From: Argopecten irradians
Lineage: Eukaryota > Mollusca > Bivalvia > Pectinida > Pectinidae
DNA length: 64,000 nt
NCBI RefSeq assembly: GCF_041381155.1
Contig: NC_091135.1
Coordinates: 8,547,620-8,611,619 of the forward strand
Direction of reading: 5' to 3'
Within the stretch, counting starts at the first letter, position 1. Every line of letters starts with the position of its first letter. This document shows positions 13,930 to 64,000 of the stretch, one piece after another. The notes under the pieces are model-generated. The model saw only the letters and a program-made list of their open reading frames with translations, did no database searches and was not told where the DNA came from. A program made the translations under genes and the position numbers.

Positions 13930-15886
13930 TTATCCGAAATCGTTTACAGTTGTGAATCCTTCGTGCAGTTTCGCAGGATATGTTCGTCCGTGTTCGATAG
14001 ATCGAATATATTTGGCATTCGTTGTTTGTTTTATCGGCCGCGTGCCAACATATTCGGTAACATAGTTATTCTGGATAGGAGACGGGACAACACTTCCATT
14101 GTCATGTAGCCTTTCCGTCAACATTTCCTTGTCTCTTACTACGGGCAATAAAGCAGCCTGCAATGTCCGTTTCTCCTTCTTTTCACGTTCCAGTAATTTC
14201 TCCAGCTCTTCACAGCGATCCTGGACATCGTTTGTGAAGTGGATGAGGTCAGGTTTTACCTCGAGTTCGATGTGCATGTCTTTTTGTACAAGATTCTGAT
14301 GGAATTTCACAGTAGCAATCTGCCTCTCAAGCGCGTAACGTTGTAGCCTATTCCTCTCGTACATCGTTCTCATTTGTTTGTAATCTGATTGTTTCCGATA
14401 CCGAACGGCGGATTGGATATTTTTGGCAAGTTCAGTCTTCTCGGATTCAAGCTTTTCAAGACTGGCTTCAAGCTTAATCCGTCTATCTTCTGTCTCATGG
14501 ATTGCGAGATGGAGTTCATTTGAACGTTCCTCGCGTTTCATTAGTCGTTGGAGTTCGGTTAGATCCTTGTCTAATTCCTGTTGTCGGCGAGATATGTCCT
14601 TTGATAACACTGATAGACGCCGAGACAGTTGTTCTTCTATTGCGGCTAGCTTGTCTAACTTTTCATTAACGTCTTTGGTTTTCTTGTCGTCAAGTCTAAG
14701 CCATCGTCTTGCCAACCATGCCGCCTTTTGGAATTTGACCAGAACATCTGGCAATACACGCAACAAACAATGGGTCTTTACATTCTTCAATTTCAAATGA
14801 TGAACGGCTTGTTCACTGTCTTGGCTAAACATTTCATGGTTTATAGTTGTTTCGTTGTCGAGCAGAAAGTCAATTCGTTCTTTTAGGAGAGATAGTCTTT
14901 GTGCAATGTTTTCAATTTCAGTATTGTCGTACAGATTCTTGATGTCCCGGAATTCGCGTCCGAGTAAAAGAAGAGCTGCACGTGACAACATTCGTTTGCG
15001 GGTCTCATGAATGTCCTCAGACGAACCCTCACTTTCGGCGTCCGACATAGCAAACGAACTCCAGCCGGATAATCCGGTTAGACCACTTAGACCACTGTCA
15101 AAGGAACCATAAGACACTAGACTTAGGTTTGATACGGACATTGCTGAGTCAACTGACCTCTCCCTGTCCGGAGCTGCAGTGGCCACTTCCAGAAAATATT
15201 TAAACAACGGATTAAATATCCTATCAACGAAATTCGCTCTTAATTCCCGTAAATATTTCAAATAATCGAAGAACCAAGCGAAGTATTGCATCATTGTGTC
15301 CGGTGCGATGTTTGTCTGAAATCCAGGTTTACGGCTTCTATTGCGCATATGTATGCGTCTGGCTTCCGCTTTGAATGCTTGACGGAGCCCAGCAATGGTT
15401 TGTATGTCCTTTGATCCTTTTATCCTTTTCGACAATTCCTTGTACATTTTGTACATTAAATCGGAGTTGAAGTTATCATGGCACCTATAGATTTTATCTT
15501 CGAACGCTTCGATTTGATTGTAGAGTACATTGCTTCTGTACTTATCGTCTGAGGTGAGCAGCTTCAGCTGTGGAATAAAGCAGATACAAGGTTAATGTGA
15601 CATATCAGTATACTTTGTAACAGTTCAACGCTATCAAACAATCATAAATGTGAAGCAAAAGAATAAAGTACAAAATATGTAACAAAATACTCCAAGTTTA
15701 AATTCCATATTTATCAATGCCCTCAAATTCCAATTACTTGTATCAATAAGTTTAGACATGATTATGATATTTGTTTGTTTGTTTGAGTCAGATATAATTA
15801 TAAGAGCAGCATCATTTATTCGACTGGTAATTACCTGTATTTTTTCTGCTGCCCAATGCCGATTGGAGTCCTGGTTGTCTGGCGAC
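13930..15886 (-). CDS. Coiled-coil protein of unknown function (3' part of gene, two exons seen)
   Basis: Two spliced minus-strand exons were found: 15835-15886 (acceptor TTATAG, donor ACAG|GTAATT) and the terminal exon 13930-15567 (acceptor CCACAG, stop TAA at 13932-13930). They join in frame as AAEKIQ|LKLLTSDD and give 562 visible residues. The order is: an N-terminal helical part rich in aromatic and basic residues (about 1-150); a Ser-rich low-complexity linker (YGSFDSGLSGLTGLSGWSSF, then acidic Ser/Glu); and a long charged region with heptad-like Leu spacing (LSLLKERIDFLL; LDKLAAIEEQLSRRLSVLSK; CEELEKLLEREKKEKRTL) predicted to be coiled coil. The tail is short and polar. No enzyme motif, signal peptide or membrane segment is seen, so it is probably cytoplasmic. 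The first visible exon enters in phase 2, so more exons lie upstream; I could not find them with confidence. I do not recognise the family. Confidence 0.85.
15835..15886 (-). CDS. Coiled-coil gene, penultimate exon
   Basis: The exon is 52 nt and encodes SPDNQDSNRHWAAEKIQ after one shared base. Both splice sites fit the consensus, and the reading frame continues directly into the terminal exon. It is separated from that exon by a 267-bp intron. Confidence 0.75.
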
Positions 15887-36014: not shown

Positions 36015-38240
36015 GTGATAGTGTTACTCTTGCCCTTTTTATAGTGCTATCTCACTGAAACATTCGGTCAAAGATACTGAGCAACACATCCATCCAGTCA
36101 TTTTATACAACACTCCCATTCAGTCACTTTATACAACACATCCATCCAATCACTACATTAAACAACACATCCATCCAGCATTTTATACACCACATCCATT
36201 CTGTAACTTCCAACAACACATCCATTCGGTCACTTTATACAACACACCCATCCAGTCACCACTTTAAACAACACATCCATCGAGTCACTTTATACAACAC
36301 ATCCATTCAGTCACTTTATACAACACATCCATCAGTCACTTTATACAACACATCCATCAGTCACTTAACAACACATCCATTCAGTCACTTTATACAACAC
36401 ATCCATTCAGTCACGTTATACAACACACATCCATCCATCCAGTCACTTTATACAACACATCCATTCAGTCATTTATAACACACATCATCATCAACCACTT
36501 TATACAACATCACTTACCACACTTCAGTCACTTTATCATACATACATACACACATCCATTATACAACATCAGTCACTCACACTATTATATACAAACAACC
36601 ATCAGTCACTTATACAACACCATCCATCCACCATCACTTTATCATTTATACAACACCCATCCATCACTTATACAACACACATCCATCACTTTATTATACA
36701 ACACCCATCAGTCACTTCATACAACACATCATACACATCCATCAGTCTACATCTTATACAACACCATCCATCACTATACACACATATACATCACACATCC
36801 ATTCCATCAGTCTACTAAACACACACCATCAGCCTTATACAACACATCCATCATCATTATACAACACACATCACACATCAACCATCCATCCCACTTAACA
36901 ACCACCATCATCACTTAACAACCACCATCCAGTCATTATACAACACCATCATCATTTAACAACACACACATCATCATTTATACAACACACATAACATTCA
37001 CTTATACATCACACACAACCATCCATCCGCGTTATACAACACATCCATTCAGTCACTTTATACAGCACATTTATCCAGTCACTTTATACAACACAACCAT
37101 CCAGTCACTTTATACAACACACCCATCCAGTCACTTCATACAACACATCCATTTAATCAATTTATACAACACACCCATCCAGTCACTTCATACAACACAT
37201 CCATTCAATCAATTTTAATCAATTTATACAACACATCCATCCAGTCACTTCATACAACACATCCATTCAATCAATTTATACAACACACCCATCCAGTCAC
37301 TTCATACAACACATCCATCCAGTCACTTTATACAACACATCTATTTAGCCACTTTATACAACACATCCGTTCAGTCACTTTATACAACACATCCATCCAG
37401 CCACTTTATACAACACATCCATCCAGTCAATTCATACAACACATCCATTCAATCAATTTATACAACACACCCATCCAGTCAATCTATACAACACATCCAT
37501 CCAGTCACTTCATACAACACATCTATCCAGTCACCTCATACAACACACCCATCCAGTCACTTCATACAACACATCCATCCAGTCACTTTATACAACACAG
37601 CCATCCACTCACTTCTTACAACACACCCATCCAGTCACTTTATACAACACATCCATTCAGTCAATTCATACAACACATCCATCCAGTCACTTCATACAAC
37701 ACATCCATCCAGTCACTTTATACAACACATCCATCCAGTCACTTCATACAACACATCCATTCAATCAAGTTATACAACACACCCATCCAGTCACTTTATA
37801 CAACACATCCATTCAATCAAGTTATACAACACACCCATCCAGTCACTTTATACAACACATTCATCCAGTCACTTTATACAACACATCCATCCACTCACTT
37901 TATACAACACATCCATCCAGTCAATTCATACAACACATCCATTCAATCAAGTTATACAACACACCCATCCAGTCACTTTATACAACACATCCATTCAATC
38001 AAGTTATACAACACACCCATCCAGTCACTTTATACAACACATCCATTCAATCAAGTTATACAACACACCCATCCAGTCACTTTATACAACACATCCATCC
38101 AGTCACTTTATACAACACATCCATCCAGTCACTTCATACAACACATCCATTCACTCACTTTATACAACACACCCATCCACTCATTTTATACAACACGTCC
38201 ATCCAGTCACGTTATACTGACAGCATACGAACCTGTAACA
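36015..38240. repeat. 26-bp minisatellite (~80 copies) inside a dispersed element
   Basis: The array runs from about 36084 to 38216. The unit is CAACACATCCATCCAGTCAC plus TTTATA (26 bp), with common variants TTCATA, TTCAATCA and CACCC. The left flank (36015-36083: CCTTTTTATAGTGCTATCTC ACTGAAACATTCGG) and right flank (TTATACTGACAGC..GAACC) are the two halves of the element seen unexpanded at 3232-3450. Units are clean at both sides, but from about 36470 to 37030 they are ragged and shortened. No open frame through it is meaningful. Confidence 0.92.
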
Positions 38241-47400: not shown

Positions 47401-48213
47401 AATTAATTGCTACGCCTCAGGCAGCGTAGCAATAACGACCGATTCAAGAGACCTCCTGTTAAGCACTCAATCATATGGAATCTGTCACGTTCAACATAGA
47501 GAAAAATGGTGTTTATTTTAATTTTTGCTACATACTAAGGGAAAAACACTGGAAAATTGAGTTTTATTACAATAAAGTGAGATACAACTAGCATACCACA
47601 GTCTCTCAAATCTATCACACACTCACCACATGCAATACAGCCTGTAGAGTGGAACCCGGTAATGAAATGCAAATACGACATTAACAAAAATAAATAAAAC
47701 ATCCAACAGCCGCTCTACTTAAAATTGAATTTTTCAAAATTCATTTGGGAGTTTCTTTGAATTAACGGACCACCATCATTTAATATTCAACGAGTGATTA
47801 CCTCTTTGGAACTGATGTTTGCAGATTGTCTGTTTCAACCTTTGAATTTTTAATATAGTGTTCGATGTTATGAATAAATAAACAGAATGATGTATATTAG
47901 TTATGCGTATTTTCAATCGCGTATTGTACTTAAATACACAGTATTACATAATGCACAAGTGGCTTGTAAATCAAAGACCGTAACATGCCACTACATTATC
48001 CTATCTGATATAATGTATGTTTGCCAATGAATCCGTACATGCAAAATTAAATACCAGTTTACCTCTAAAAGAATTGCATTTTTTTGGAATTAAAATTGTG
48101 AAATTCATTTTTTCTTTGTCTATTTAGAGTACACTCAGATTATTGTGTTATATATGTATAACATGACAAAAAGTTTAAAGTTTATCCTCAAAACAAAGGA
48201 TCAACGTGAAAAA
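41401..48213. other. Long stretch without supportable genes
   Basis: AT-rich on both strands, with no splice-bounded exon that I trust. A perfect 10-bp hairpin (ATTGCTACGC, 8-base loop, GCGTAGCAAT) occurs at 47406-47433, next to a GC-richer patch (47214-47400) containing ATGGCGTCCGAATCCGGACA. This may be a decayed element or an isolated first exon. Nothing else stands out. Confidence 0.4.
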
Positions 48214-49598
48214 GAATACAAAACAAAAACAAAATAGCATCGACTAAATATTACATTGTATAAGGTGTAACAGAACACAAAACTAAAACAAAATTACACG
48301 GACTAAATATTACATTGTATAAGGTGTAACAGAATACAAAACTAAAACAAATGTACACGGACTAAATATTACATTGTATAAGGTGTAACAGAATACAAAA
48401 CTAAAACAAAATAACATCGACTAAATATTACATTGTATAAAGGTGTAACAGAACACAAAACTAAAACAAAATAACATCGACTAAATATTACATTGTATAA
48501 GGTGTAACAGAACACAAAACTAAAACAAAATTACACGGACTAAATATTACATTGTATAAGGTGTAACAGAATACAAAACGAAAACAAAATTACACGGACT
48601 AAATATTACATTGTATAAGGTGTAACAGAATACAAAACTAAAACAAAATTACACGGACTAAATTTTACATTGTATCAGGTGTAACAGAATACAAAACTAA
48701 AACAAAATAACAAGGACTAAATATTACATTGTATAAGGTGTAACAGAACACAAAACTAAAACAAAATTACACGGACTAAATATTACATTGTATAAGGTGT
48801 AACAGAATACAAAACGAAAACAAAATTACACGGACTAAATATGACATTGTATAAGGTGTAACAGAACACAAAACTAAAACAAAATTACACGGACTAAATA
48901 TTACATTGTATAAGGTGTAACAGAATACAAAACGAAAACAAAATTACACGGACTAAATATTACATTGTATCAGGTGTAACAGAATACAAAACTAAAACAA
49001 AATTACACGGACTAAATTTTACATTGTATAAGGTGAACACAAAACTAAAACAAAATTACACGGACTAAATATTACATTGTATAAGGTGTAACAGAATACA
49101 AAACTAAAACAAAATTACACGGACTAAATATTACATTGTATAAGGTGTAACAGAATACAAAACTAAAACAAAATAACATTGACTAAATATTACATTGTAT
49201 AAGGTGTAACAGAATACAAAACTAAAACAAAATTACACGGACTAAATATTACATTGTATAAGGTGTAACAGAATACAAAACTAAAACAAAATTACATCGA
49301 CTAAATATTACATTGTATAAGGTGTAACAGAACACAAAACTAAAACAAAATTACACGGACTAAATATTACATTGTATAAGGTGTAACAGAACACAAAACT
49401 AAAACAAAATTACACGGACTAAATATTACATTGTATAAGGTGTAACAGAACACAAAACTAAAACAAAATAACAAGGACTAAATATTACATTGTATAAGGT
49501 GTAACAGAACACAAAACTAAAACAAAATAACATCGACTAGATATTACATTGTATAAGGTGTAACAGAATACAAAACGAAAAGAAAACATCGACGTAGA
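48214..49598. repeat. 59-bp minisatellite, ~23 copies
   Basis: The unit is ACTAAATATTACATTGTATA AGGTGTAACAGAATACAAAA CTAAAACAAAATTACACGG (59 bp). Copies are highly alike. Variation is confined to a few positions: TTACACGG, TAACATCG or TAACAAGG; GAATAC or GAACAC; ACTAAA or ACGAAA. One unit near 49035 has an 8-base deletion. Each unit contains TTACAC and its inverse GTGTAA. The array sits in otherwise featureless AT-rich DNA. Confidence 0.93.
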
Positions 49599-57980: not shown

Positions 57981-58071
57981 CGCAAAATGCAGTGGTTTGG
58001 AATACTCTTGCTAGCAGTGGTCATGGCTGCTCCCGAAAGGAAGTCCTCGAATCCTTTATTAGGTGCAATCT
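57981..58071 (+). CDS. Precursor gene, signal-peptide exon
   Basis: Acceptor TTTTACAG, ATG at 57987, donor T|GTAAGT at 58072. It encodes 28 residues: a hydrophobic signal peptide, probable cleavage at VVMA|AP, then APERKSSNPLLGAI. The last part is homologous to the end of every C exon (APAKRALNPFLQSI), including the phase-1 donor. Confidence 0.85.
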
Positions 58072-61000
58072 GTAAGTGGAGTATAGGTAGTAAGAATTAC
58101 CAATTACAAGTCGGAAATATGTGCATCAAGGTAAAATTATTGGGATCCACTGTTTTACGTAGGTTTTTATTTTTACAAAGATAAATAATGCATAACGACG
58201 TTTTCTGATTAAGGAAACTCGACAAAAAATAATTATTGTTGAAGATATAGAGTACAGATGATAAGTTTTGTTTAAATGACATGTCTTTAAAGCATATTCT
58301 ATCAAAAGCTCTTTTGAGCTTTAATTCAAAGGAAAACGTAATTAAATCTTTATATATTTCCTGGGAAAAGATTCTACTTTTCTTTTACGTATGTCCATAA
58401 CTAACTCGACTTGACACATGGTTCAAACCTGAAATAAATTCGCGAGCAAATATATTCCGGGTTTGAATCATGTATTGAGTCGAGTTAATTAAGGACATAT
58501 GTAATAGAAAAGTAGCAGCTTTTCCCTCGAAATGGTGAAATATGATTTTATCGTACAACTATGCAAATTAAAAAACGATACATTTGATTCCTATTAATCG
58601 TTTTGTGTCTTCTAATGAGGTAAAAAACATTATACATAAGCTTTGTCTTCATCTCTAAACGAACAAGTAGGATTATACTATCGAGATGTATAAAAGTTTT
58701 GTAGTTGCGTAGATATATAGAGTTGCACAACGAGTGGTTGTTGGATTTGTTTATATTTCACACGAGTGAGTTATTTTTAAAAAGTTACAAAAGATACGAG
58801 CTTTAGTAATAGCTTACGATTGTACTTACAATCACTTCCCTTTTCTCTTTAATTATTGTTGCTCTTTAAATTTTGAGTTCAGCGCTCGCACCACCATTCA
58901 TTTTACATATAGTGTGTACTCATTCTTTTGTAACCAGTGAATGTATTCCACGCTGACGAGGTCAAGATGCTCGTCACAAATCTGCACCACTCCTTGGAAT
59001 CTGATGACAATTTAGCCCTGTGCACGAAAGAGTGTGACACACTTGTCGATGGTCAGACCTCTGGCTCCATCAACGTCCTAGGCCACTCGGGTTGTCCTTT
59101 GATCTGTCACTCGTAAGTAATGATGGTTTAAAGGGATTGTGTGAGCTGGTTGTATGGACTTAACATCCAATTGGGTATCCAAGGACGTATCCCCCTGTAT
59201 GTCGTCAGTAGCGTATTTGAATGTCTATAAGATTTTAGGAACTGCAGTATATTCGAGTATCTCTTTGCAAAAGTGCAATCATCTGCCAATTTAATATTGC
59301 TTTCTAAGTAAATTACTCAGAGATACCGGACAGAACACCCCACCTAATCGCATTATACTGACAAAGGGATAACCAGTCTCGCTTCTCGTCATGCGAGCGC
59401 TAATCAGGAGCAGACATGCAATATATGCTATTGTTTTGACAAAAATAACATCGCAGTGTCATATTTATACATATTCCAATTTAAAGTACAATGTAGTTAT
59501 TTGTCTCTATGTATATATTGATCTTTCGACATATATTAGTCACAATGACGTTTTAGGTGCTAACATATTTGTTTTACAATGAAAGCATTGACACAACAAC
59601 AAATATTTTGTTTTCAAAGGAGAATACACGTCAGAAAAGTCTTGAATTATATCCTGTTGTTTTGTATGGTATTTAAAAATAATGCGCTATAGCCTCAAAA
59701 CTGGAACCGATTTTTTGTATATGTTTTTTCTTGTGTTTTGTTGTTGTCTTTGGTTTTATATTTTGTTGTTTTGTTTTTGGCTTTTTTCTTTTCTTTATTT
59801 TCTATTGTAATAACTGAATATATATGTATAGTAAAACGTTTGGGACTAATGGTTTGATTTCAATTTATTTTCATTTTACACAAATTCGATATCTTACAAC
59901 GGAATAACATCAAACTACGTAACACATTAAAGCCATGCCATTACATATAATGATATCATAACGTTCTCTTTCACAATTTGTTCTTCAAACATTCAAAACA
60001 GATGACGTACGCGGTTTTTATCTCCATTGACAGATTCCAGGAATTTGTACATTATTTCGATATCACCCCACAAACCACCACTGTCGCTCCAGCCAAGAGG
60101 GCTTTGAATCCCTTTCTGCAATCAATCTGTAAGTATCCGCTTATAAAATCGTATCATTTAATTTGGCGATAACCACTTTAGAGAAAATTCCTAAATGATG
60201 CATTACCAAATATTGCCGAAAGAAAGAAGAATACTGTTTCAAGTACAGTATCAAAGATAACTAATTTAACAGATCGTCCTAGATATAAACATAAAGTTCA
60301 CATCTAAAACTGAGACTAGTAAAGAGCTAAGAGTAATAAGAATGTGTAGTTGTAGTTTGCTTGATTTATATCGCATACAGATATCGAAAACGTTATCCAT
60401 GTGGTCTTCTGGCTTTGCATGCCCATTACCATTACCATTTAGTTTGCATACCGTGCTTATTTTTGTATTTATTTTTTTTGATAAGTGAACGTGTTCCACG
60501 CTGATGAGGTCAAGATGCTCGTCACAAATCTGTACCACAAATTGGGATCTGATGATAATGTAGCCCTGTGCACGAATGAGTGTAACACACTAGTCGATGG
60601 TCAGACCTCTGGCTCCATTAACGTCCTAGGCCACTCGGGTTGTCCTTTGATCTGCAACTCGTAAGTAATGTTGGTTTAAAGGGATGTTGTTTGCTGGTTG
60701 TATGGACTTTACATCTAATTGGTTTTACTTTACCTTTTAATAAAGGTTAATTTAGGAAGGCTTCTCCTGCATGTGGTCCGTAGCGTGTGAGAATGTCTAC
60801 ACGACTTTTGGAACTGGAGTATATTCGAATGTCTCTTTGCAAAAGTGCAATCTCCAGCTGCCAATTAAATGCTGCTGTAAATTATTAAGGGACACCGGAC
60901 AGCACACCCCATCTGGTCTTGTTATCATGTTCTTGCCATAATGGAACTTTTGCCCTTTTTAGTGATATTTGTAGCATGCTTTGTCATCTAAAATAGTTAA

Positions 61001-64000
61001 TTCTGGGATTTTATTGTGTATTCTCACTATGATGACTGTGTAATGTTAATATTATCTTTTCTTTTAATGTACAGATTCCAGGCATTTGTTCAGCATTTCG
61101 ACGTTACCCCACAAACCACCACTGTCGCTCCAGCCAAGAGGGCTTTGAATCCCTTTCTGCAATCAATCTGTAAGTATCTGCTTATAAAATCGTATCATTT
61201 AATTTGGCGATAACCACTTTAGAGAAAATTCCTAAATGATGCATTACCAAATATTGCCGAAAGAAAGAAGAATACTGTTTCAAGTACAGTATCAAAAATA
61301 ACTAATTTAACAGATCGTCCTAGATATAAACATAAAGTTCACATCTAAAACTGAGACTAGTAAAGAGCTAAGAGTAATAAGAATGTGTAGTTGTAGTTTG
61401 CTTGATTTATATCGCATACAGATATCGAAAACGTTATCCGTGTGGTCTTCTGGCTTTGCATGCCCATTACCATTACCATTCAGTTTGCATACCGTGCTTA
61501 TTTTTGTATTTTTTTTTTTTTGATAAGTGAACGTGTTCCACGCTGACGAGGTCAAGATGCTCGTCACAAACCTGTACCACAAATTGGGATCTGATGATAA
61601 TGTAGCCCTGTGCACGAATGAGTGTAACACACTAGTCGATGGTCAGACCTCTGGCTCCATTAACGTCCTAGGCCACTCGGGTTGTCCTTTGATCTGCAAC
61701 TCGTAAGTAATGTTGGTTTAAAGGGATGTTGTTTGCTGGTTGTATGGACTTTACATCTAATTGGTTTTACTTTACCTTTTAATAAAGGTTAATTTAGGAA
61801 GGCTTCTCCTGCATGTGGTCCGTAGCGTGTGAGAAAGTCTACACGACTTTAGGAACTGGAGTATATTCGAATGTCTCTTTGCAAAAGTGCAATCTCCAGC
61901 TGCCAATTAAATGCTGCTGTAAATTATTAAGGGACACCGGACAGCACACCCCATCTGGTCTTGTTATCATGTTCTTGCCATAATGGAACTTTTGCCCTTT
62001 TTAGTGATATTTGTAGCATGCTTTGTCATCTAAAATAGTTAATTCTGGGATTTTATTGTGTATTCTCACTATGATGACTGTGTAATGTTAATATTATCTT
62101 TTCTTTCAATGTACAGATTCCAGGCATTTGTTCAGCATTTCGACGTTACCCCACAAACCACCACTGTCGCTCCAGCCAAGAGGGCTTTGAATCCCTTTCT
62201 GCAATCAATCTGTAAGTATCTGCTTATAAAATCGTATCATTTAATTTGGCGATAACCACTTTAGAGAAAATTCCTAAATGATGCATTACCAAATATTGCC
62301 GAAAGAAAGAAGAATACTGTTTCAAGTACAGTATCAAAGATAACTAATTTAACAGATCGTCCTAGATATAAACATAAAGTTCACATCTAAAACTGAGACT
62401 AGTAAAGAGCTAAGAGTAATAAGAATGTGTAGTTGTAGTTTGCTTGATTTATATCGCATACAGATATCGAAAACGTTATCCATGTGGTCTTCTGGCTTTG
62501 CATGCCCATTACCATTACCATTCAGTTTGCATACCGTGCTTATTTTTGTATTTATTTTTTTTGATAAGTGAACGTGTTCCACGCTGATGAGGTCAAGATG
62601 CTCGTCACAAATCTGTACCACAAATTGGGATCTGATGATAATGTAGCCCTGTGCACGAATGAGTGTAACACACTAGTCGATGGTCAGACCTCTGGCTCCA
62701 TTAACGTCCTAGGCCACTCGGGTTGTCCTTTGATCTGCAACTCGTAAGTAATGTTGGTTTAAAGGGATGTTGTTTGCTGGTTGTATGGACTTTACATCTA
62801 ATTGGTTTTACTTTACCTTTTAATAAAGGTTAATTTAGGAAGGCTTCTCCTGCATGTGGTCCGTAGCGTGTGAGAAAGTCTACACGACTTTAGGAACTGG
62901 AGTATATTCGAATGTCTCTTTGCAAAAGTGCAATCTCCAGCTGCCAATTAAATGCTGCTGTAAATTATTAAAGGACACCGGACAGCACACCCCATCTGGT
63001 CTTGTTATCATGTTCTTGCCATAATGGAACTTTTGCCCTTTTTAGGTGATATTTGTAGCATGCTTTGTCATCTAAAATAGTTAATTCTGGGATTTTATTG
63101 TGTATTCTCACTATGATGACTGTGTAATGTTAATATTATCTTTTTCTTTCAATGTACAGATTCCAGGCATTTGTTCAGCATTTCGACGTTACCCCACAAA
63201 CCACCACTGTCGCTCCAGCCAAGAGGGCTTTGAATCCCTTTCTGCAATCAATCTGTAAGTATCTGCTTATAAAAATCGTATCATTTAATTTGGCGATAAC
63301 CACTTTAGAGCAAATTCTTAAATGATGCATTACCAAATATTGCCGAAAGAAAGAAGAATACTGTTTCAAGTACAGTATCAAAAATAACTAATTTAACAGA
63401 TCGTCCTAGATATAAACATAAAGTTCACATCTAAAACTGAGACTAGTAAAGAGCTAAGAGTAATAAGAATGTGTAGTTGTAGTTTGCTTGATTTATATCG
63501 CATACAGATATCGAAAACGTTATCCATGTGGTCTTCTGGCTTTGCATGCCCATTACCATTACCATTCAGTTTGCATACCGTGCTTATTTTTGTATTTATT
63601 TTTTTTGATAAGTGAACGTGTTCCACGCTGACGAGGTCAAGATGCTCGTCACAAATCTGTACCACAAATTGGGATCTGATGATAATGTAGCCCTGTGCAC
63701 GAATGAGTGTAACACACTAGTCGATGGTCAGACCTCTGGCTCCATTAACGTCCTAGGCCACTCGGGTTGTCCTTTGATCTGCAACTCGTAAGTAATGTTG
63801 GTTTAAAGGGATGTTGTTTGCTGGTTGTATGGACTTTACATCTAATTGGTTTTACTTTACCTTTTAATAAAGGTTAATTTAGGAAGGCTTCTCCTGCATG
63901 TGGTCCGTAGCTTGTGAGAATGTCTACACGACTTTAGGAACTGGAGTATATTCGAATGTCTCTTTGCAAAAGTGCAATCTCCAGCTGCCAATTAAATGCT
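57981..64000 (+). CDS. Secreted tandem-repeat precursor with four-Cys modules (continues past the window end)
   Basis: Exons: signal exon 57981-58071 (ATG 57987), then alternating B and C exons: B1 58938-59112, C1 60034-60128, B2 60486-60660, C2 61075-61169, B3 61528-61702, C3 62117-62211, B4 62569-62743, C4 63160-63254, B5 63613-63787. All introns are GT-AG. B exons are 175 nt (phase 1 to 2) and C exons 95 nt (phase 2 to 1), so each pair adds exactly 90 residues in frame. The protein starts MQWFGILLLAVVMAAPERKS (signal peptide). Each module has a helix-like part (NPFLQSILNVFHADEVKMLV), four cysteines in the pattern C-x3-C-x19-C-x3-C (ALCTNEC ... SGCPLIC), FQAFVQHFDVTPQTTT, and APAKR. The KR pair looks like a proprotein-convertase site, so identical ~90-residue proteins could be released. 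Modules from B2 on are almost identical; B1/C1 are diverged. Family not recognised. Confidence 0.85.
58938..59112 (+). CDS. Precursor gene, exon B1 (first, diverged four-Cys exon)
   Basis: It encodes LNVFHADEVKMLVTNLHHSL, then ESDDNLALCTKECDTLVDG and onward to CPLICHS. It differs from B2-B5 at several residues (HHSLE for YHKLG, L for V, K and D for two N, H for N). This marks it as the older copy, outside the recent amplification. Confidence 0.85.
59330..59390 (+). repeat. Fragment of the minisatellite-bearing element in precursor intron
   Basis: ACCGGACAGAACACCCCACC followed by TAATCGCATTATACTGACA and GGGATAACCAGTC aligns with the unexpanded element at 3232-3450 and with the borders of the 26-bp array. 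A related piece (GACACCGGACAGCACACCCC ATCTGGTC) recurs at 60893, 61934 and 62976 within each tandem unit. Confidence 0.5.
60034..60128 (+). CDS. Precursor gene, exon C1
   Basis: It encodes (S)FQEFVHYFDITPQTTTVAPAK and then RALNPFLQSI. Four residues differ from C2-C4 (E/A, H/Q, Y/H, I/V). The preceding intron is 921 bp, against 414 bp in later units, so the recent tandem amplification starts after or within this unit. Confidence 0.85.
60486..60660 (+). CDS. Precursor gene, exon B2
   Basis: It encodes (L)NVFHADEVKMLVTNLYHKL, GSDDNVALCTNECNTLVDG and the second CX3C. It is the same protein as B3-B5. The acceptor is unusual, being GATAAG after a T-rich run. Confidence 0.85.
61075..61169 (+). CDS. 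Precursor gene, exon C2
   Basis: Acceptor TGTACAG; 95 nt; it encodes (S)FQAFVQHFDVTPQTTTVAP and AKRALNPFLQSI. It carries the dibasic KR site and joins to B3. Confidence 0.85.
61528..61702 (+). CDS. Precursor gene, exon B3
   Basis: 175 nt; the protein is identical to B2. The base differences noticed (GAT/GAC, AAT/AAC) are silent. Confidence 0.85.
62117..62211 (+). CDS. Precursor gene, exon C3
   Basis: 95 nt; the same product as C2, with the same splice sites. Confidence 0.85.
62569..62743 (+). CDS. Precursor gene, exon B4
   Basis: 175 nt; the protein is identical to B2 and B3. Confidence 0.85.
63160..63254 (+). CDS. Precursor gene, exon C4
   Basis: 95 nt; the same product as C2 and C3. The following intron carries small indels (for example one extra A after CTTATAAAA) relative to earlier units. 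Confidence 0.85.
63613..63787 (+). CDS. Precursor gene, exon B5 (last in window)
   Basis: 175 nt; the same protein as B2-B4. Its donor TC|GTAAGT is intact and the unit's intron continues to the window end, so at least one more C exon, or a terminal exon, lies beyond 64000. Confidence 0.85.

Follow-up and report, generated by a model that had tools for sequence, protein, structure and literature searches.

A cluster of genes for a putative secreted four-cysteine module in Argopecten irradians, comprising single-module genes and two probable tandem polyprotein genes

The window, which is the whole 64,000-nt stretch of A. irradians DNA analysed here (base 1 = 8547620 of contig NC_091135.1), contained the first part of a gene, gene 1, with modules 1–4 and, of module 5, exon A only. 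The window was extended by 15 adjoining 10-kb stretches, and a 214-kb stretch was examined in total; coordinates that are negative or exceed 64000 are given in window numbering and lie outside the window. Gene 1 was complete in the extended stretch, and its features were as follows.

57987..58071, + strand: signal exon, 28 codons plus 1 nt, MQWFGILLLAVVMAAPERKSSNPLLGAI
58938..59112, + strand: module 1 exon A, with both C-x3-C pairs
60034..60128, + strand: module 1 exon B, with the last helix, the Thr/Pro/Ala tail, AKR, and the first residues of module 2
60486..60660, + strand: module 2 exon A
61075..61169, + strand: module 2 exon B
61528..61702, + strand: module 3 exon A
62117..62211, + strand: module 3 exon B
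62569..62743, + strand: module 4 exon A
63160..63254, + strand: module 4 exon B
63613..63787, + strand: module 5 exon A; the gene continues past the window (modules 5B to 9)
68367-68462 (outside the window), + strand: stop exon

Gene 1 consisted of a signal exon followed by nine A/B exon pairs, the last exon B of which carried the stop codon (68460-68462, outside the window), and encoded 837 amino acids. All 18 introns were of the GT-AG type, with phases alternating 1, 2, 1, 2. Every exon A was 175 nt and every exon B 95 nt in length, except for the last exon B of 96 nt with the stop; the exon lengths and the 1/2/1 phases given in a preliminary description of this DNA therefore held through the full gene. 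That description had placed the start at 57981, which is indeed where the first coding exon begins, but the ATG itself lies at 57987. As this exon is preceded by AG, a non-coding 5' exon is probably located upstream. A comparison of the upstream regions of gene 1 and gene 2 (described below) did not locate the 5' exon of gene 1, and the two regions were alike only around the signal exon (83% over 153 nt) and in one 36-nt inverted match. The signal peptide was called from the hydrophobic stretch following the ATG. Each repeat of gene 1 measured about 1042 nt and included two introns, which accounted for about 772 nt (about 74%). Modules 2–6 and 8 read almost alike, as did module 7 except for one Leu-to-Ile change, whereas the first module and the final part of the ninth deviated from the remaining modules.

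Searching the 214-kb stretch with a profile revealed a second polyprotein gene, gene 2, about 120 kb upstream of gene 1. In addition, there were five intact single-module genes on the + strand, at about −22, −14.6, −3.9, +79, and +89 kb in window numbering, each consisting of a signal exon, an exon A, and an exon B that carries the stop, and there were two damaged copies.

-63545 to -46837 at most, + strand: gene 2, one signal exon and ten modules, 942 amino acids
-37969 to -37044 (about −37.5 kb), + strand: damaged single-module copy, the frame of exon A lost before the second C-x3-C pair
98903 to 99820 (about +99 kb), + strand: damaged single-module copy, with stops in exon A

All module genes of this cluster were on the + strand, in a region of about 163 kb. 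When the whole genome (846 Mb, 1508 contigs) was searched three times with protein queries, convincing relatives were found only in the cluster, with 32/32, 32/32, and 44/47 of the matches among the best candidates; only these best candidates were scored, and farther relatives may have been missed. The three matches outside the cluster, all from the third search, had E-values of 0.06, 0.65, and 1.3 and were on contigs C6, C5, and C9, respectively. The match on C6 (34338087-34338233) was a weak one to a gene 2 module and contained three internal stops. Other features of the surroundings were a 26-nt satellite of about 81 copies (window 36082-38217), a 59-nt tandem repeat of 23.5 copies with 94% matches (window 48206-49586), and a 553-amino-acid open frame on the minus strand (window 13933-15591), which appeared coiled-coil-like by eye and matched nothing in Pfam up to E 0.01. 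Downstream of gene 1, at 113236-114582 on the minus strand and outside the window, a 449-amino-acid frame contained the ligand-binding domain of neurotransmitter-gated channels (Pfam E 1.6e-47); this Cys-loop receptor frame was apparently a single exon. Elsewhere in the genome, C1q gave at least 150 matches, all that were scored out of 241 candidates, which were distributed over contigs C1–C6 and C8–C16 and some small contigs. COX1 gave no match, and big defensin gave none either, though the control genomes were equally negative for it. Large C1q and receptor families are typical of bivalves; the receptor expansion in lophotrochozoans is the title subject of PMC6896357. Neither a tRNA nor an Rfam match at the gathering score was found in window 1-64000.

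Seven units of gene 1, units 2–8, were 98.5–99.4% alike and differed at 6–16 of 1048 aligned columns over the 21 pairs, which confirms the recent amplification proposed in the preliminary description. Such similarity could also arise if the near-identical repeats were an artefact of the assembly, or could be found in units that are separate genes, and both readings are very improbable here. Every pair of units differed by its own pattern of substitutions, which argues against an artefact, and gene 2, which has diverged, has the same plan. A scan for a second signal-like exon, which recovered the real signal exon as a positive control, found none in the 17 introns between the module exons of gene 1, indicating that none of the units could by itself begin a secreted protein. 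Polyadenylation-like hexamers were present in the module introns as well, and shorter transcripts are therefore possible. From this sequence evidence, gene 1 is probably a secreted tandem polyprotein, encoded in one reading frame and built from a new domain.

The cysteine pattern C-x3-C-x19-C-x3-C, described earlier from the modules in the window, was present in 9/9 modules of gene 1. In gene 2, the middle spacing was x19 in five of the ten modules and x20 in the other five. Two CXXXC motifs were conserved in all nine gene 1 modules, all ten gene 2 modules, and the proteins of all five intact single genes. The computed mature module had 88 amino acids, a mass of 9.4 kDa, or 9447.6 Da for the main module in reduced form, a pI of 4.9, and a net charge of −5, and the modules were acidic in general, with net charges of −5 to −9. 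Crude calculations of helix propensities and hydrophobic moments favoured helices close to the N-terminus and downstream of the second C-x3-C pair; around the cysteines themselves, helices were weakly supported in gene 1.

Pfam searches with two proteins of the cluster gave no match, and NCBIfam gave none to the module proteins. In the PDB sequences, one search found no match and the best of a second was one designed protein at E 2.1. A wider Pfam search was conducted with 11 family members and hits up to E 10. In this search, zf-TAZ (TAZ zinc finger) matched one member (E 0.0076) and none of the other ten, PAN_4 (PAN domain) two (best E 0.063), Snf7 three (best E 0.11), and TEBP_beta one (E 0.15); we attribute all four to chance. 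One single-gene protein, in a query with one wrong residue, had matched PAN_4 at E 0.032 with 14.7 bits, below the 27-bit cut-off; this match and the designed protein are likewise attributed to chance. Pattern searches for the module yielded seven stretches in prokaryote genomes and 13 in viral contigs, none of which was confirmed. In the literature, searches with peptide strings of the module and with "repetitive polyprotein" plus "mollus" found no paper, and nothing similar appeared in the titles and abstract openings returned by further searches. The module family thus appears to be new, in the sense of being absent from Pfam, NCBIfam, the PDB sequences, the scanned prokaryote and viral collections, and the papers searched, and the view of the module as undescribed was borne out by the profile searches, which gave no convincing known family. 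This family may well include uncharacterised proteins from other bivalves. We give about even odds to the broader proposal of a previously undescribed family of secreted domains that occupies one cluster only in this genome and in which two intron-rich tandem polyprotein genes arose from single-module genes.

Of the dibasic sites, 9/9 in gene 1 and 10/10 in gene 2 were at signal/module or module/module borders, and none occurred within the modules. Every module had been expected to end in APAKR; this sequence closes eight of the nine gene 1 modules, whereas the ninth, beyond the window, ends in the stop exon without KR. The borders of gene 2 read AKR, VRR, or NKR, with the dibasic codons AAGAGG, AAACGC, AGGCGA, and AAACGG, and the dibasic residues persisted while the surrounding linker changed. 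In the five single-gene proteins, KK after the signal part was followed by A..SNPF, and in most polyprotein modules KR was followed by ALNPF. The single-gene proteins ended in TTTAAPAV, TTTTTAPAV, or TTTTATPSV, and the gene 1 modules had TTTVAPA ahead of KR. These matching start and end sequences suggested that the single genes and the polyprotein genes encode almost identical mature ends in different ways. The resemblance of the single-gene termini to the ends expected from cutting at KR is the best evidence that acidic four-cysteine proteins of about 88 residues may be released.

Kexin/PC-type convertases cut after KR, and carboxypeptidases trim the exposed ends; on these modules, such processing would give 88-residue proteins of 9.4 kDa. 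Furin is not the obvious enzyme, because the KR sites lack Arg at P4. In the predicted pathway, the signal peptide would route the polyprotein chain into the secretory pathway, where two disulphides might form in each module and the two C-x3-C pairs staple two helices. A kexin/PC-type convertase would then cleave after each KR or RR, and a carboxypeptidase would remove the basic residues left behind, so that the cell would secrete roughly nine copies of a single helical protein, acidic, 9.4 kDa in mass, and ending in a Thr/Pro/Ala tail. More tentatively, the point of the array may be dose, with many equal copies from each transcript, and unequal crossing-over or gene conversion may keep the copies alike. 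If the modules instead remained joined, the product would be a long beads-on-a-string secreted protein, for example of an adhesive, mucus, or matrix, in which the KR linkers act as flexible hinges. The near-identical repeats, the Thr/Pro/Ala linkers, and the last module without KR would suit such a structural chain, but we consider it quite improbable, as all 19 dibasic sites lie exactly at the borders and are retained though the linkers change, and the neighbouring genes encode the module alone with a signal exon. We therefore favour secretion followed by cleavage into single modules, to which we assign, on sequence grounds, a probability of about 0.75. The earlier reading of a secreted, dibasic-bounded polyprotein was upheld, as far as sequence can show, by the introns, none of the 17 having a signal exon, and the single-module neighbours lend independent support to the release of single modules.

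The modules resembled others from the gene to which they belong, a pattern that unequal crossing-over or gene conversion would produce. In a module tree of 21 distinct rows, from which three identical rows had been dropped, the single genes grouped with support of 100/100, gene 1 with 95/91, and gene 2 weakly with 50/74. The stop exon of gene 1 was 80% alike to an internal exon B of gene 2 of the GTSAKR type, which suggested that gene 1 may have descended from a gene 2-like array. Values of dN/dS were calculated by NG86 for 13 distinct modules out of 24. They were 0.04–0.13 in 11 of the 15 pairs within gene 2, with dS saturated in the other four, 0.08–0.35 in nine of the ten pairs among single genes, with one pair undefined, and 0.31 between modules 1 and 2 of gene 1. 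Comparisons of gene 1 with gene 2 gave higher values (0.17–0.59 in 10 of 12 pairs), and pairs of polyprotein and single-gene modules were mostly saturated. The low dN/dS indicated purifying selection on the module domain. The GC content at third positions was 0.57 in one polyprotein gene and 0.55 in the other, versus 0.44 in two neighbouring open frames, a small comparison that is a hint at most. Within units 2–8 of gene 1, four of 270 exon columns and 13 of 778 intron columns were variable, with no excess of constraint in the exons; since exons and introns vary alike, the recent burst, in which too little time has passed, gives no independent proof of function.

An exon A and an exon B together form a symmetrical 270-nt cassette with phase 1 at both ends, so that adding or skipping one preserves the frame. 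Dose might then not be the point of the array: alternative splicing of the A+B pairs could yield chains that vary in length, or the array could be a recent neutral expansion. The frame-preserving phases and the near identity of units 2–8 in their introns too would be compatible with these readings, which nevertheless seem unlikely to us, because gene 2, with its ten diverged modules, is an older array and strongly constrained, indicating that multi-module genes have been retained.

For the released module, our first guess, offered tentatively and with the odds against it, is a protein abundant outside cells that carries or sequesters a small ligand, which is probably hydrophobic; the near-identical copies favour dose. 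We rank a defence protein second and a component of matrix or mucus third. The defence reading takes the module as a host-defence peptide produced in many copies, a disulphide-stapled helical hairpin like the plant alpha-hairpinins or the scorpion kappa-KTx. Each module has two C-x3-C pairs, and alpha-hairpinin precursors are likewise described as multi-module in PMC7191063. We regard this role as doubtful, given the loop of 19–20 residues between the pairs, the length of about 88 residues, the net charge of −5 to −9, the lack of a Pfam or PDB match, and the low dN/dS. The acidity is mild evidence against a cationic antimicrobial peptide, as is the low dN/dS against an arms-race reproductive protein.

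Among known systems, the best analogue in cysteine pattern is provided by the alpha-hairpinins and kappa-KTx, which share with the modules two CXXXC motifs in two helices (PMC7191063, PMC11722136), and the alpha-hairpinins also share modular precursors (PMC7191063). Their helices form an antiparallel pair with Cys1-Cys4 and Cys2-Cys3 linkages; by comparison, the modules described here are longer in loop and overall length, acidic, of animal origin, and without a sequence match to them. The mCRP-I/sCRP-I family of the bivalve Mytilus resembles the present cluster in having single- and multiple-array members and dibasic sites, but is described in PMC10138031 as having six-cysteine knottin-like arrays, with multiple arrays within one exon. 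Its C-C-CC-C-C pattern differs from that of the modules, which have four cysteines and no CC. Fungal KEX2-processed repeat proteins and neuropeptide precursors likewise combine a signal peptide with repeated cores between KR, RR, or KK sites (PMC9769878). Those cores are short peptides, whereas the cores here are domain-sized, are encoded by two exons each, and have cysteines that presumably form disulphides.

The best analogue in working is the nematode polyprotein allergens (NPA, ABA-1), in which the small, near-identical helical units of a secreted tandem array are cleaved at basic motifs set at regular intervals, giving equal copies; in PMC3079579, the units are described as having a seven-helix fold in which one disulphide is conserved, with furin-like K/R-x-K/R-R sites. 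The modules here differ in having 88 residues, four cysteines, KR sites, and introns in about 74% of the repeat, and the NPA Pfam profile gave no match among hits up to E 10. Binding of fatty acids and retinol is a trait of the NPA family. By arrangement, with repeated units between regularly spaced sites and with no homology meant, genes 1 and 2 fit the class of tandemly repetitive polyproteins. This class is characterised in the same paper by a repeat region whose introns are tiny or absent (PMC3079579), unlike the repeats here, in which about 772 of 1042 nt are intron; we regard small or absent introns as a usual rather than a defining trait. Tandemly repetitive polyproteins are also called rare there, and their adaptive value "mysterious" (PMC3079579). 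The cluster contains the same domain as the product of single genes, in a mixed ten-module array, and in a nine-module array that is nearly uniform, each repeat having two introns, and it allows array size, homogenisation of repeats, and dose to be compared across adjacent genes within a single animal. The module would also be a new domain for structural work. If the broader proposal of a new family is true, it offers a natural comparison between the same protein produced from single genes and from arrays, by which the reason for the existence of arrays could be tested.
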